The notes beneath the pieces are model-generated. The model made no database searches. It was given only the letters and a program-made list of their open reading frames with translations, and was not told the origin of the DNA. The position numbers and the translations under genes are program-made. Below are positions 51,141 through 58,510 of a stretch of DNA of 64,000 nucleotides, piece after piece. Source of the DNA: Acidobacteriota bacterium (GTDB lineage: Bacteria; Acidobacteriota; UBA4820); contig JAKQCT010000066.1 of the NCBI GenBank assembly GCA_029559035.1, positions 1 to 64,000 of the forward strand. The letters run 5' to 3'. Numbering within the stretch: the stretch's first letter is position 1; each line of letters begins with the position of its first letter.

Positions 51141-51905
51141 TTATGGCGCTGACATCCTAAAATATTCCCGGATCGTTTTCAGGATTGCCGTAAGGCTCGT
51201 GTCGCCAGGTGGAGAGATCGCGTTTAAACCCAGTTCCGACGCCCTCCCCAGAGTGGTCGCTCCGATAGGAAGGACCTTTGTCCGGCTGATGGCGCGAAAG
51301 GCTGAAGGAGAGTCCGCGAAAGCGCTGAAAGCCGACGGAGAAGCGAAGAACGCGAGATCGGCTCCCTCCTTCAAGAGAGAGAGCTCCTCGTCCCGGATCT
51401 TCCGCGGTATTGTTTCGTAAAGCTCCAGTTCCGAGACCGCCCAGTTACCTTTGATCAATATCTCCTGAGCTGTCCGGAGGCCTCCCCTTGAAGAAGGGAA
51501 AAATGCTGTCGAGGGCGGAAAAGCCCCGAGAAGGCAAGTCCCGAGGTGCTCACCATCCTCGACGGGCGGCATTACATCAGTCTTTACGCCTGCGGCGGAA
51601 AGCTCTTCCCCGGTCCCCTTCCCGACTGCGGCGTACCGGGTTTTCAGGGGAAACTCCAGGCTCTTTTCTTTCATCCATCCGAGAAGGTGCCTGACGGCCC
51701 TTCTGCTTGAGAAAACCATCCAGCCGAAAGAATTCCACTTGGCCGCGATCTCGCCGTCGTTCGAAGGCTTCAAGGCGACCGTTTCCAATGCGGGTATCTC
51801 GATGACGCGAAACCCGAGTTTTTCGAGCTCAATCCTGAGAGCGGAATTGTCCTCAGGCGCTCTCGTCAACAGGATCTTCCGGACCGATCCAGTTTTGCCG
51901 CTCAT
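51141..51905 (-). CDS. hemD: Uroporphyrinogen-III synthase
   Basis: A 254-residue two-domain HemD-fold protein that closes and inverts ring D of hydroxymethylbilane to give uroporphyrinogen III. Seen: ILLTRAPEDN at the N-terminus, WMVFSSRRAVRHL, and FFASPSAFSAF plus LPIGATTLGRASELGL at the second domain. ATG 51905 overlaps the hemC stop (ATGA). Family sequence is poorly conserved, so the call leans on its place after hemC. Last gene of the operon. Confidence 0.85.
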   Translation of the reverse strand: MSGKTGSVRKILLTRAPEDNSALRIELEKLGFRVIEIPALETVALKPSNDGEIAAKWNSFGWMVFSSRRAVRHLLGWMKEKSLEFPLKTRYAAVGKGTGEELSAAGVKTDVMPPVEDGEHLGTCLLGAFPPSTAFFPSSRGGLRTAQEILIKGNWAVSELELYETIPRKIRDEELSLLKEGADLAFFASPSAFSAFADSPSAFRAISRTKVLPIGATTLGRASELGLNAISPPGDTSLTAILKTIREYFRMSAP

Positions 51906-52813
51906 ACTTCGCAAAGGAGCTCTCTTGCCCCCAGGGTCAGAAAGCGTTCGAAAAGCTCTCCGGCGAGATCGAGATGGTCAGAAGCGTTTCCTTCAACTTC
52001 ATCCCTGATCCGCTTCGCTCCCGAGAGCGACGAAAGGAACGCCGAAACGCGCATCCGCCCGCCCGAGATCTCGGCGTGGATCCCCACGGGCGTTGTGCAG
52101 GACCCCTGCAGGTCCCGGAGGAACTTCCTTTCCGTCTCCGTTTCCATCCGCGCCTTTTTGTCGTCCAGCTTCGCGAGCAGATCGTTAAGGTCGCGGCTGT
52201 CCTTTCTGGTTTCGACGGCGATCGCTCCCTGGCCCACTGCAGGTATCACCTCGCCTAGAGAAAAATGGCCGCTGATAAGGTCTTCGTATCCGAGCCTTTT
52301 CAAACCCGCCGAAGCCAGGACTATAAAATCGAAGATACCTGACTCGACCTTTCTCAGGCGGGAATCGACGTTGCCCCTCAGGGGGACGATCTCCCATCCG
52401 GGGCCCAGAAGCAAGAGCTGGAATTTTCTGCGCAGGCTGCCAGTACCGATCCTCGCTTTTTCCGGAATTGAACTTCCCCCCATTGCCGGCGACAAGACGA
52501 AGGCGTCCCTGGGGTCCTCTCTTTCCGGGACACAGGGAAGGAAGAGTTCGGGAGGGTTCTCGACAGGATAATCTTTCAGCGAGTGGACGGCGACGTCTAT
52601 CCTGCAGTCCAGGAGCGCCTCCTGTATCTCCTTCACGAAAAGCCCTTTCCCTCCGAACCCGTGAAGAGGGAGGCTTGTTATCCTGTCCCCCGCGGTTTTT
52701 ATGACGACCACCTCGGTTATGCAGTCTCGTTTCCTCAGGAGGTCAGATACGATCTCCGCCTGCCTGAGCGCGAGGGCGCTTCCCCTGGTGCCGATCCTCA
52801 CGTGAAGGTTCAT
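51902..52813 (-). CDS. hemC: Porphobilinogen deaminase
   Basis: A 303-residue enzyme that links four porphobilinogens into hydroxymethylbilane. RIGTRGSALALRQAEIV, VHSLKDYP, GTGSLRRKFQL and LQGSCTTPVGIHAEI, with the Cys that carries the dipyrromethane cofactor, are all present. The true start is ATG 52813 behind AAGGAGG; the frame runs further upstream into hemA without support. It starts 4 bases after the hemA stop. Confidence 0.96.
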   Translation of the reverse strand: MNLHVRIGTRGSALALRQAEIVSDLLRKRDCITEVVVIKTAGDRITSLPLHGFGGKGLFVKEIQEALLDCRIDVAVHSLKDYPVENPPELFLPCVPEREDPRDAFVLSPAMGGSSIPEKARIGTGSLRRKFQLLLLGPGWEIVPLRGNVDSRLRKVESGIFDFIVLASAGLKRLGYEDLISGHFSLGEVIPAVGQGAIAVETRKDSRDLNDLLAKLDDKKARMETETERKFLRDLQGSCTTPVGIHAEISGGRMRVSAFLSSLSGAKRIRDEVEGNASDHLDLAGELFERFLTLGARELLCEV

Positions 52814-52817
52814 TATT

Positions 52818-54119
52818 TCAGCCTCCTTCGGTCCCGCCGCCGCGTCGGCCGCCCGTATCACTGTCGAGGAAGAACCTTTCGAAGACCTCGGCGGCTTCGT
52901 CCCTCTCCTCTTCCAGGACCAGTTTCTTGAGCTGGGTGATTGGGCCGTGCATGAGGCGGTGGACGATTTTCATGACAGACCTCCGGACAAGGTCCTCTTC
53001 CTCTTTGCCGGAGATCCCAAGTTTTGAAAGAAGCGTGCCGGTCTCCGCCTCGGCCATCCGGCCGGCTCTCTCGACCACTCTCTCAATAAGGCGGGGAAGT
53101 TCCGCGTGTTCAAGGAAATGGCCGTAGAGTGCGACCTCCTCTTCCACCATCCGCTCCGCGACTACCGCTCTTCTCTTCCGCTCCTCGAGCCCCAGGTCGG
53201 CACTCCTCTGAAGGTCGTCGATGTTGAAAAGATATACTCCGTCTATGTCTCCCGCGCCCTCCTCGGTGTTCCTGGGGACTGCGATATCGATTATCATCAG
53301 CGGCGCCCATTTTCTCCGCTTCATCGCGGAAAGAAGCATCTCCCTCGTTATCACCGGCTTCGCGGCCGCCGTAGAAGCTATGACCAGGTCGGCGCGGCAA
53401 AGCTCATCGGGAAAACTTTCCCACGGGACTACCCTCGCGTCAAAGCGCGAAGCGATATCCCCCGCCCTCGCGCTGGTCCTGTTCGCGACCGCGACGTTCC
53501 TGGATCCTTCGTCGTAGAAGTGCGACGCTATTATCCTGGCCATTTCGCCCGCTCCGAGGAGAAGCACTTTTTTGGCGCCGATCTCGGAGAATACCGACCT
53601 GGCGAGATTGAAGGCCGCGTAGGAGACCGTCACCGGGTGCCTTCCTATCCCGCTTTCGGTGCGGACCTTCCTGGCCACGTACATGGCCCTCTGGAACACC
53701 AGGTTGAGCTGGGTGGTGATGGTTCTCCCGGACCGGGAGGCGAAGTAAGCCTCCTTCACCTGTCCGAGGACCTGAGGCTCCCCGAGGATCATCGAATCGA
53801 GCCCGGAGGCGACCCTGAAAAGATGGCGCACCATGTCCCTTCCCGTCATCGTCCGGAACAGGTTCCGCCCATCGGGCGGAAGCTCCCTGTTCTCGAGGAG
53901 GAGGTCAGCCAGCGCGAGAGGGTCCGTTTCCGGAGGCAGTTCGGCGTATAACTCGACCCTGTTGCAGGTCGAAAGGAGGACCGCCCCGGGAACTCCCCTG
54001 TTCCCGAGCCACCGCAGGAAAGACAGTCTTTCATCGTCCCCGAAAGCCAGTTTTTCCCTGGTCTCCACGGGAGCTTCGCCGTGGCTGATGCCTGTCATGG
54101 CGAGGCGGTTCAGTGCCAT
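52818..54119 (-). CDS. hemA: Glutamyl-tRNA reductase
   Basis: A 433-residue enzyme that reduces glutamyl-tRNA to glutamate-1-semialdehyde, the first step of the C5 haem pathway. GISHGEAPVETREKLAF, catalytic Cys in LLSTCNRVELYAE, SGLDSMILGEPQVLGQVKEAY and the NADPH-binding VLLLGAGEMARI are clear. ATG 54119 is chosen by homology; it overlaps the end of the hemX-like gene by 10 bases. Confidence 0.96.
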   Translation of the reverse strand: MALNRLAMTGISHGEAPVETREKLAFGDDERLSFLRWLGNRGVPGAVLLSTCNRVELYAELPPETDPLALADLLLENRELPPDGRNLFRTMTGRDMVRHLFRVASGLDSMILGEPQVLGQVKEAYFASRSGRTITTQLNLVFQRAMYVARKVRTESGIGRHPVTVSYAAFNLARSVFSEIGAKKVLLLGAGEMARIIASHFYDEGSRNVAVANRTSARAGDIASRFDARVVPWESFPDELCRADLVIASTAAAKPVITREMLLSAMKRRKWAPLMIIDIAVPRNTEEGAGDIDGVYLFNIDDLQRSADLGLEERKRRAVVAERMVEEEVALYGHFLEHAELPRLIERVVERAGRMAEAETGTLLSKLGISGKEEEDLVRRSVMKIVHRLMHGPITQLKKLVLEEERDEAAEVFERFFLDSDTGGRRGGGTEGG

Positions 54120-54901
54120 AACATGCCCATGAAAATGAAAAGGAAAAGGGAAGAGCCGACGATCACCAGAAAAGCCCTCTTGCGGGGCCTCATGCCGGAT
54201 CTCACCCATCCGAAAGTGGCCGCGCCCAGCACGATCCAGGAGAGGAAGGACGCAGCTTCGAGCAGCCCGGGACGGTACCCGCCGCCGTCCGAGCGGAGTA
54301 TCCCGTAGGCGGCGGACGAGAGCATCCCCGCGCTGAAGAAAAAGAAGCCTGTTTTAAGATAGAACTTGCTCAGTTTCTCGGTAACGGATATAGGGGGGAG
54401 GAGCAACGCGTTCGGCTGTTTCCTTTTCCTGAGTGAGTGGTCCTGCATGATGAATATCGCGGAGTAGATGAAAGAGAACAGCACCAGCGTCATCCCGGAC
54501 ACGATAAGAAAGATGTGAAGCGGGAACCAGAAAGTCGTGAAATACGGCTTCGTTTCCGGAAGGTCCTGGGGAAGCATTCCTGCGGTCATCATCAGGAGGA
54601 CCGAGATTGGGGTAAGGAAAAAAAGCATCTCCCTCTGCCTCGCGAATATCCCCGAGACGAAGTAGGTGAGCATCAGGAAGAACACGGTCAGTTCCATGAG
54701 CTGGGGAGCGTTCACGGATGGAATGACCCCGCTCTCCTTCCATTTCGCGGTCAAAGAGGCGGCGTGAAGAACGAACGCGGCCGAAGCGGAAGCCAGGCAG
54801 AGCAGGTGCAGGGCTTTCCTCCTGAAACCGCCGTCGAGGAACGCGAAAGCCATCGCGGCGACGTACAGAAGCAGCGTGAGGTCACCTATCGTCCTGATCA
54901 T
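54110..54901 (-). CDS. hemX: HemX/CcsA-like membrane protein
   Basis: A 263-residue protein with about eight membrane helices, of the cytochrome c assembly (CcsA/HemX) family; HAASL, FWFPLHIFLIVSGMTLVLFSFIYSAIFIMQ and LLEAASFLSWIVLGAATFGWVRSG are typical. It lacks the WGXXWXWD-type tryptophan-rich haem motif of true CcsA, so it is closer to HemX, which influences glutamyl-tRNA reductase levels. It sits directly before hemA, the usual HemX place. Confidence 0.8.
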   Translation of the reverse strand: MIRTIGDLTLLLYVAAMAFAFLDGGFRRKALHLLCLASASAAFVLHAASLTAKWKESGVIPSVNAPQLMELTVFFLMLTYFVSGIFARQREMLFFLTPISVLLMMTAGMLPQDLPETKPYFTTFWFPLHIFLIVSGMTLVLFSFIYSAIFIMQDHSLRKRKQPNALLLPPISVTEKLSKFYLKTGFFFFSAGMLSSAAYGILRSDGGGYRPGLLEAASFLSWIVLGAATFGWVRSGMRPRKRAFLVIVGSSLFLFIFMGMLWH

Positions 54902-56493: not shown

Positions 56494-57106
56494 TCTGGGT
56501 TCCTCCCTGGTTACTTGTTACCATTAAAATCATTTTTGGTCAAGTGGCGGGAAACGGGGCTGTGACCGGAACTGTCTTTTGTTCATAGGCAGATGGCAAT
56601 GGACACGCGACCTGCGAAAAGCGTGTGTTACCTGCCCCGCGCCCCGAAAAGCTTCCCTGGGGCCGTGTGGCCCCGGTCAACAGTGAAATTCATTGAAAAT
56701 TGAAAAGTGAAGATGAAACATTGTGGCAGCCACGCCCTTTACGGGCGCGCCCGCGGGCGTAAAACCCGCGGCTACAATATGTCTTCTGCCTTCATCGCAT
56801 CTGGCCGATGCGCCATATCCTCTTGCCACCTTCTGCCTAAATCGGCGCTCAGAGGCCCGCCCCTTCAGACAACCCTACCTTCCCCGCTTGCCGACTTCCA
56901 AGCTTTCCGGCTTCCTAACTATTAACGGGATTCTGGCGGGGTCGACGCCGACCCGCTCCCGCGCCTCGCAGGCTCGGCTTCATGGAAAAACCTGCCGGTT
57001 TCCCCATGGACTCCTTCCCGCCTTCGAAGGAGCACTTACCACGGGAAAAGCCTCTTTTCCCGTTAACCCTTTTGGGTCGCGTGTTCTCGATTTCTTCGTG
57101 GGATTC
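56494..57106. repeat. Long gap with repeats and partial tRNA-end copy
   Basis: No supported gene. Seen: TTTTCAA-type heptamers on minus (56689-56718), a GC-rich repeat (56729-56749) inverted relative to 44218-44240, the palindromic block CCGCGGGCG/ACCCGCGG (56751-56769), a 21-base copy of the tRNA-Asp 3' end and flank (56927-56947), and a perfect 10-bp inverted repeat (57041-57050 with 57054-57063). Confidence 0.6.
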
Positions 57107-57184
57107 TGGCGGGGTCGACGGGGCTCGAACCCGCGACCTTCGGCGTGACAGGCCGACGCTCTAACCAAACTGAGCTACGACCCC
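57107..57184 (-). tRNA. tRNA-Asp (GTC)
   Basis: On the minus strand the acceptor GGGGTCG pairs with CGACCCC, the anticodon loop CTGTCAC in a TCGGC/GCCGA stem gives anticodon GTC (aspartate), the T arm carries GGTTCGAGCC, and CCA is encoded (57107-57109). Confidence 0.96.
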
Positions 57185-57226: not shown

Positions 57227-57356
57227 GAGGTTTCTTGGAAATAAAGCCCGGAAAACTTTTTATAAGTCGCGGTTGTTGTGGATTTCTTCGTGAAAGCTTG
57301 AAAAAATGAGCAAAAGGTAATAAGGTTTCACTTTTAAGGATCTGCAGGAGGAATCC

Positions 57357-57710
57357 ATGAAGAAGGTCAATTTGTTGCTGCCTCTCTTTTCAGCGCTATG
57401 TCTTGTAGTCCTTTCGATCTCCGCGGAGCAGGCGACAATCGGCGCCGAAAAATGCGCGAGGATATGTCATAAGATACAGTATGATTCATGGCTGAAAACC
57501 CGCCACGCCGCCGTGAGCCCCAAGGTCGATTGCGAGTCCTGCCACGGCAAGGGCTCCGATTACGCGAGGCTCCATATCATGACCGATCCCGACGCCGCCA
57601 AGGCCGCCGGGCTTGTCGCTAAGCCTGCCAAGGCGTCCTGCACGGAGAAGTGTCACACGACCGGTTTCAAAGAAGAGATGATTAAAGCGGTCCACGAGCA
57701 CAAGAAGTAA
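57357..57710 (+). CDS. Small periplasmic multihaem cytochrome c
   Basis: A 117-residue exported protein (signal peptide to about residue 23). Three haem-attachment sites: CARICH (33-38), CESCH (59-63) and CTEKCH (95-100). The first and third have three residues between the cysteines (CX3CH), not the usual two. YDSWLKTRHAAV after the first site resembles the cytochrome c554 family, and His50, His73 and His113 are candidate second ligands. Likely an electron carrier in the periplasm. AGGAGG precedes the ATG. Confidence 0.8.
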   Translation: MKKVNLLLPLFSALCLVVLSISAEQATIGAEKCARICHKIQYDSWLKTRHAAVSPKVDCESCHGKGSDYARLHIMTDPDAAKAAGLVAKPAKASCTEKCHTTGFKEEMIKAVHEHKK

Positions 57711-57781: not shown

Positions 57782-58510
57782 ATGGAAGAGTTATCCCGGG
57801 CGCTTGACAAATGGGACAGGAAAAGCGTTTTTCTGCTGAGAATCGATTACGGTTACCCGGTCCCCCTTAAGGCCGACCGCACGATCGACTGTTCCGCGGT
57901 CCCTCCATCGGATGTGCTGGAAGCGGCTCCGGCGTTTGCCCGTCCCGCCGTATGCCGGATCGTTTCTCCCCAGTTCGCTTTCTCGTCAAGAAGGAGGACG
58001 AGGGAGGGAGGCGGAGCGTCCGCCGTTCCTCTCCGTGATTCGGCGGTGATCATCGAGACGAGGTTCCCGAAAACCTTCAGGAGCGTCAGGGACTACCTCG
58101 AAAAAGAGAATGTCCGTCATACATCCTACGAAGCAAGACACGACGGCTCGCTTCCGCCCCTCTACAGGCAGCTGAGGCCGGGAAGCGACCTTTTCGAGCT
58201 TCATCTGTCCAGGGAATGGGAGACAGGGCTGTGCATGGCGCGCGGCACGTCGGTCATCGTCGAGGCGGGTTCGCTGATCTCCAAAAGCGCGGAACCGGTC
58301 GCGGCGGGAGCTCTGGCGAAGGAAATGGGGATAACGACGGGAGCGGCCGCGTCGTACCTGAGATGGATGGAAGACGCCGCGCTGGTCAGGAGGGTCGGAA
58401 AAGGATACCTGCTGAGGCACGAAGGGCTCTACCTTCTTTTCCGGGGCCGCCCCGAGCGTCAGGCCCGCGAGCGGGTCGTGAAAAAGAGCGACCCGATGGA
58501 CCTTGACTGA
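57782..58510 (+). CDS. Unknown protein with C-terminal winged-helix part
   Basis: A 242-residue soluble protein. The first 130 residues (ending around RFPKTFRSVRDYLEKENV) are not recognised. Residues about 170-225 (AAGALAKEMGITTGAAASYLRWMEDAALVRRVGKGYLLRHEGLYLLF) have the pattern of a winged helix-turn-helix. It may be a transcription regulator, possibly of glmS, which lies 50 bases downstream on the same strand. No promoter palindrome is seen. Confidence 0.6.
   Translation: MEELSRALDKWDRKSVFLLRIDYGYPVPLKADRTIDCSAVPPSDVLEAAPAFARPAVCRIVSPQFAFSSRRRTREGGGASAVPLRDSAVIIETRFPKTFRSVRDYLEKENVRHTSYEARHDGSLPPLYRQLRPGSDLFELHLSREWETGLCMARGTSVIVEAGSLISKSAEPVAAGALAKEMGITTGAAASYLRWMEDAALVRRVGKGYLLRHEGLYLLFRGRPERQARERVVKKSDPMDLD

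Follow-up and report, generated by a model that had tools for sequence, protein, structure and literature searches.

A predicted triheme c554-like cytochrome with widened haem motifs at its first and third sites

Background

Cytochrome c554 of Nitrosomonas europaea has four haems. Haem motifs with three residues between the cysteines (CX3CH) have been described in larger multihaem proteins. In the heptahaem MmcA of Methanosarcina acetivorans, seven motif peptides, CXXXCH and CXXXXCH included, carry +615.17 Da by liquid chromatography-tandem mass spectrometry in the published account (PMC11024163), and the CcmE of Methanosarcina is described as having a CXXXY motif (PMC9084895). Homologues of ImcH, the Geobacter quinol dehydrogenase, have an atypical CX3CH according to their description (PMC6295460). 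CX3CH itself is already known. Here we describe a 117-residue cytochrome whose motifs read CARICH, CESCH, and CTEKCH, the first and third being CX3CH. Its gene lies in a 64,000-nucleotide stretch of contig JAKQCT010000066.1, referred to below as the window. No literature on this small c554-like family was recognised among the open-licence papers listed by our searches.

We read the protein as a triheme c554-like periplasmic carrier, probably exported, that would bear haem on all three motifs, with those of haem 1 and haem 3 widened by one residue. The probability of this reading is about 0.75.

Conserved motifs and predicted haem binding

Re-reading the open reading frame (ORF) at 57357-57710 (plus strand) returned exactly the motifs and coordinates given in the initial annotation. 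In a 12-row alignment of relatives, all Cys-Cys-His triads, H50, and H113 are invariant, and H115 is kept in at least 90% of rows. Three proximal and three candidate distal histidines match the three haem motifs in this alignment. The protein has every feature of the triheme c554-like domain seen in Acidobacteriota: the order site 1, CExCHG, site 3, together with a conserved His50 and an HxH at the C terminus. Among the 45 relatives that lack an extra motif, 39 have HxH beyond site 3. When residues 25-117 were shuffled 200,000 times, at least two CX3CH arose in 0.0195% of cases, and at least two together with a CX2CH in 0.001%. Conservation is stronger evidence than these frequencies.

Haem 1 would be attached at CARICH, haem 2 at CESCH, and haem 3 at CTEKCH, with His38, His63, and His100 as predicted proximal ligands and His50, His113, and His115 as the probable distal ones. 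Site 1 appears to have received one small residue after the first cysteine, and site 3 also one residue. A System I* cytochrome c maturation (Ccm) pathway, whose CcmE has CPSKY, would attach haem to both CX3CH sites, as the CXXXY-type Ccm does in Methanosarcina. The protein would tolerate the widened loops, which may alter haem pose or redox potential. MmcA, as described, likewise combines CX3CH in a multihaem cytochrome with a Ccm containing a CXXXY CcmE. The likeness is one of motif and CcmE type; MmcA is heptahaem and archaeal, the present protein bacterial with three motifs.

Pfam and NCBIfam searches gave only matches below cut-off, c554-like and decahaem cytochromes among others. Against PF13435 (Cytochrome c554 / c-prime), the cytochrome scores 19.3 bits, compared with a cut-off of 20.8. 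A profile search aligned its site-1 element CHKxQxxSWxxxxHA and its CESCHG site with c554 (1bvb/1ft5/1ft6) at a weak E of 0.012. The protein differs from c554 in having three motifs instead of four, two of them CX3CH, and in lacking the second c554 haem. VIA-align superposed the AlphaFold2 model on 1ft6 over 91 residues, with a middling Z of 5.5 and a root-mean-square deviation of 2.8, and c554 came first among the seven chains compared. Searching PDB sequences with the single protein recovered MccA only weakly (E 0.0044).

Distribution and evolution of CX3CH sites

One clear copy of the cytochrome is present in the source genome, which is 95% complete and comprises 2.86 Mb in 99 contigs. A first contig scan with the single protein as query found no relative. 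In the subsequent relatives search, 23 of 60 genomes (source included) matched at E <= 0.01, and a 12-row profile matched 118 of 396 genomes of the phylum at E <= 1e-6. Acidobacteria, Geothrix, and Thermoanaerobaculia supply most of the best named relatives, and other phyla contribute weaker ones; the source thus probably belongs to the Acidobacteriota. The profile gave 173 hits; the three expected motifs were present in 144, and cleaning left 132 (this cytochrome included). In the 12 dropped sequences the first motif failed the site-1 test, some being cut off or masked, and all 12 have CX2CH at the motifs found. The relatives were gathered by similarity to this cytochrome and form a non-random sample; CX2CH at the middle site was part of the selection pattern for the 132. 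CX3CHG at the middle site was seen in none of the 173 hits.

Alignment of homologues, proposed initially as a check, did not return CX2CH throughout, yet most relatives have it. Site 1 is CX2CH in 119 of the 132, CX3CH in 12 (this cytochrome included), and CX4CH in one, while site 3 is CX2CH in 127 and CX3CH in five, again including this one. Extra motifs read CX2CH in 86 relatives and CX3CH in one. Small c554-like cytochromes with such an extra motif, found in Acidobacteriota, Ignavibacteria, Zixibacteria, and others, share the domain and have four or so motifs; CX3CH occupies site 1 in 9 of 87 and site 3 in 1 of 87.

The family of the source genome yielded three members, the other two from the genomes labelled G001 and G002, and a fourth genome, G003, gave no cytochrome match. 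All three have CX3CH at site 1, and two of them also at site 3. The G002 protein (CGKMCH/CEACH/CTEKCH) is 58% identical to the window's cytochrome over aligned rows; that of G001 reads CAKMCH/CETCH/CLKCH. At class level, the threshold of E <= 1e-15 is passed by 11 sequences, which come from 9 of the 13 genomes. Among these, site 1 is CX3CH in the same three sequences and site 3 in four: the window's, that of G002, and a single copy from each of G008 and G012. Further cases of CX3CH at site 1 come from G021, which belongs to another family of the phylum, from Ignavibacteria, and from metagenome-assembled genomes of Chitinispirillaceae, Bacteroidetes, and Zixibacteria. The form of the widened motif is constrained, with C[AGT]xxCH in 12 of 12 cases at site 1 and CT[EAS]KCH in 5 of 5 at site 3, although related rows are not independent. 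One Zixibacteria sequence (L075) has CX3CH at site 1 and at its extra motif, and the CX4CH at site 1 belongs to a GN15 sequence (L088) without an extra motif.

On the tree of the 132, the least number of changes is five for CX3CH at site 1, six for any widening there, and three for site 3; the starred branches force at least four (any widening, site 1) and at least two (site 3). These trees are quick reconstructions from 150-155 columns with many weak forks. CX3CH at sites 1 and 3 is rare yet recurring and has arisen several times among the relatives. In a tree of 144, the family of the source genome joins two paralogues with CX3CH at site 3 (Shimodaira-Hasegawa-like approximate likelihood ratio test 84). 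This placement suggests that site 3 widened first and site 1 later, and that G001 then reverted at site 3.

In six paralogues (L025, L009, L007, L032, L033, and L038), the triheme domain forms the end of a longer protein. A Pro/Ala-rich linker is present in several, and some begin, by eye, like lipoproteins. These proteins are possibly tethered electron carriers.

The motif type has consequences for genome surveys. Scans restricted to CXXCH would count this cytochrome as mono-haem and could miss it. Moreover, the cytochromes of the source genome, G001, and G002, together with CX2CH members, offer natural variants one residue apart in a haem motif, on a System I* background. The cost of motif spacing and its effect on haem loading and redox potential are therefore directly testable.

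Cytochrome c maturation

The source genome encodes a CcmE that ends in KCPSKY, in which cysteine replaces the haem-binding histidine. This cysteine type is termed System I* in section 8 of PMC3601427. A CcmF/NrfE-family gene (354.5 bits) adjoins ccmE, and a CcmC-like gene lies elsewhere in the genome (107.5 bits), both scoring below the NCBIfam cut-offs. The 13 class genomes were searched for ResB (PF05140), CcmE (PF03100), and Cytochrom_C_asm (PF01578), and a further 26 genomes for CcmE. ResB has no match in the source genome; three of the 13 match (G001, G008, and G010). Each of the 31 CcmE read belongs to the cysteine type, whether the carrier has CX3CH or CX2CH (12 of 13 class genomes and 19 of 26 others), with variants CASKY in G031 and CPSRY in G021. 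CcmE was not found in the remaining seven of the 26, namely those of L058 and L068 (CX3CH), that of L088 (CX4CH), and G037 with those of L045, L033, and L070 (CX2CH), among which G037 is listed as 100% complete. System I* is therefore not shared by the whole wider family. A check of the source genome for an unusual maturation system had been suggested initially; its CcmE is of the System I* type, but so are the 30 others. System I* was also considered as the cause of CX3CH and set aside, since 31 CcmE of one type offer no contrast.

Cytochrom_C_asm gives four matches in the source genome and one to three in each of the other 12 class genomes. Three of the four are the CcmF/NrfE-like gene, the CcmC-like gene, and a HemX-like gene next to hemA in the window. 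The fourth (C47:26701-27231) is a divergent CcsA-like gene that scored just over the cut-off once and, at 29.3 bits, just under it on recheck. It is followed by a 266-residue membrane protein, ResB-like by eye, with no family match. Nearby are genes for a TonB-dependent receptor and for a protein with a molybdopterin domain and one CX2CH. The pair (L168 3894-5427, minus strand) may represent an additional haem lyase of System II-like type in this genome.

ImcH-like proteins and other multihaem genes

ImcH-like genes occur in 9 of the 13 class genomes, and all nine proteins keep a CX3CH of the form CG[RK][ILV]CH. There, the motif is followed by Y and SPHA and then by a CX2CH, a pattern shared with the window's cytochrome. 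ImcH of Geobacter and its homologues are large membrane quinol dehydrogenases with one CX3CH among many CX2CH, whereas the present protein has 117 residues and no membrane domain beyond the signal peptide. ImcH is delimited by N-terminal membrane helices and at least five CX2CH besides the CX3CH in the account of PMC6295460; the cytochrome has one CX2CH.

In G002, the cytochrome gene lies directly upstream of a gene for a CbcL-like protein (11 CX2CH and a cytochrome b561 domain). An ImcH-like protein with one CX3CH and 12 CX2CH is encoded two genes downstream of the cytochrome, followed by nuo-looking genes by eye. In G021, a CX3CH relative is followed by two CbcL-like proteins, the second with a b561 match below cut-off, and by an NrfH/NapC-like protein with CX4CH. 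A family member in G008 adjoins a 1020-residue protein with 42 CX2CH motifs (L160 6235-9297, minus strand). Two family searches, plus one weak hit, brought out four other multihaem genes of the source genome, a set that is not a census. By eye they appear to be NrfH-like, NrfA-like, eight-motif, and c554-like; their motifs are CX2CH in 21 of 21 cases.

Alternative explanations

Several observations weigh against the triheme carrier proposed above. Both widened sites occur together only in this cytochrome and that of G002 (2 of 132). The widening is not essential either: at site 3, two members of one family differ, G001 having CX2CH and G002 CX3CH. In the source genome, the gene stands alone, with no operon partner seen beside it, and no ImcH-like gene was found there, nor in G001, G003, or G012. 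The AlphaFold2 model, of the apoprotein, is of moderate confidence (predicted local distance difference test 71, predicted TM-score 0.54), and a Foldseek search of PDB returned nothing at E <= 0.001.

The meaning of the extra residue is a separate matter. C[AGT]xxCH at haem 1 could be a selected, convergent redox tuning common to small periplasmic carriers and ImcH-like proteins, both of which G002 encodes side by side in one region, and evolutionarily cheap because System I* would tolerate a one-residue insertion; we consider this unlikely. Neutral drift, to which we give slightly less than even odds, holds that Ccm reads little beyond the cysteines and the histidine, and that one-residue insertions are tolerated and functionally meaningless. 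Gains and losses of CX3CH across the tree, and the narrow site 3 of G001, speak for drift. It accounts less readily for the constrained form of the insertion in separate lineages, for the middle site free of CX3CHG, and for the retention of CX3CH by every ImcH-like protein found. Drift is compatible with haem on all three motifs and rivals only the tuning proposal.

Other explanations bear on the widened sites themselves. If one or both CX3CH were degenerate and no longer bound haem, the protein would be mono- or dihaem. This is improbable given that CX3CH binds haem in MmcA (PMC11024163) and that none of the three family members has a half-lost motif. The 132 relatives are silent on motif decay, complete motifs having been part of their selection. 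A dedicated CX3CH haem lyase, raised by the initial annotation as special recognition, receives a similarly low probability. Such a lyase is known for the MccA motif. NrfEFG is described as one for CX2CK (PMC3601427). The fourth Cytochrom_C_asm match of the source genome would fit, but no fourth match exists in G001 and G002, which nonetheless have CX3CH; the CcsA-like gene therefore does not track CX3CH, and its neighbours suggest another substrate. With cysteine-type CcmE common to CX3CH and CX2CH carriers, the idea of a special lyase is not supported. The test is weak, however, because many class genomes with a CX2CH family copy carry an ImcH-like CX3CH and leave no clean control. An assembly or sequencing error is conceivable for a draft genome in 99 contigs, and the intact frame taken earlier as evidence against it is insufficient, since a one-residue insertion amounts to three bases. 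Nevertheless, the same insertion in the separately assembled G001 and G002, and in other phyla, excludes such an error for practical purposes. CX3CH as a subfamily trait was upheld in that it follows lineages; the two sites are not one unit, each being found without the other. The widened-site trait is heritable, recurrent, separable, and not a slip.

Genomic setting

Table 1. Features of the cytochrome gene in the window
Feature	Position	Strand	Remarks
Triheme c554-like cytochrome gene (predicted), 117 residues	57357..57710	+	Intact ORF, ATG start, conserved family
AGGAGG, ribosome-binding-like	57346..57351	+	Read 5 bases before ATG
Predicted N-terminal signal peptide, residues about 1-23	57357..57425	+	By eye
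Haem site 1, CARICH (CX3CH), residues 33-38	57453..57470	+	
His50, candidate distal haem ligand	57504..57506	+	Invariant in 12/12 rows
Haem site 2, CESCH (CX2CH), residues 59-63	57531..57545	+	CESCHG context
Haem site 3, CTEKCH (CX3CH), residues 95-100	57639..57656	+	
His113-Glu-His115, candidate distal ligands	57693..57701	+	H113 invariant, H115 in at least 90% of 12 rows

The cytochrome gene is flanked by a tRNA-Asp gene and an unnamed ORF, beyond which lies a glmS-like gene (SIS and glutamine amidotransferase domains). The ORF directly downstream (57782-58510, plus strand) encodes 242 residues with weak winged-helix matches only, and no relative of it stands beside the 11 cytochrome relatives whose surroundings were compared. 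A haem biosynthesis cluster (51141-54901, minus strand) comprising hemD, hemC, hemA, and the HemX-like Cytochrom_C_asm gene lies about 2.5 kb from the cytochrome gene on the opposite strand. An exact 21-base direct repeat occurs at 56927-56947 and 57100-57120, 173 bases apart. Its second copy covers the 3' end of the tRNA-Asp gene (57107-57184, minus strand), so that the first could be a remnant of a decayed tRNA or else an old duplication resembling an attachment site.
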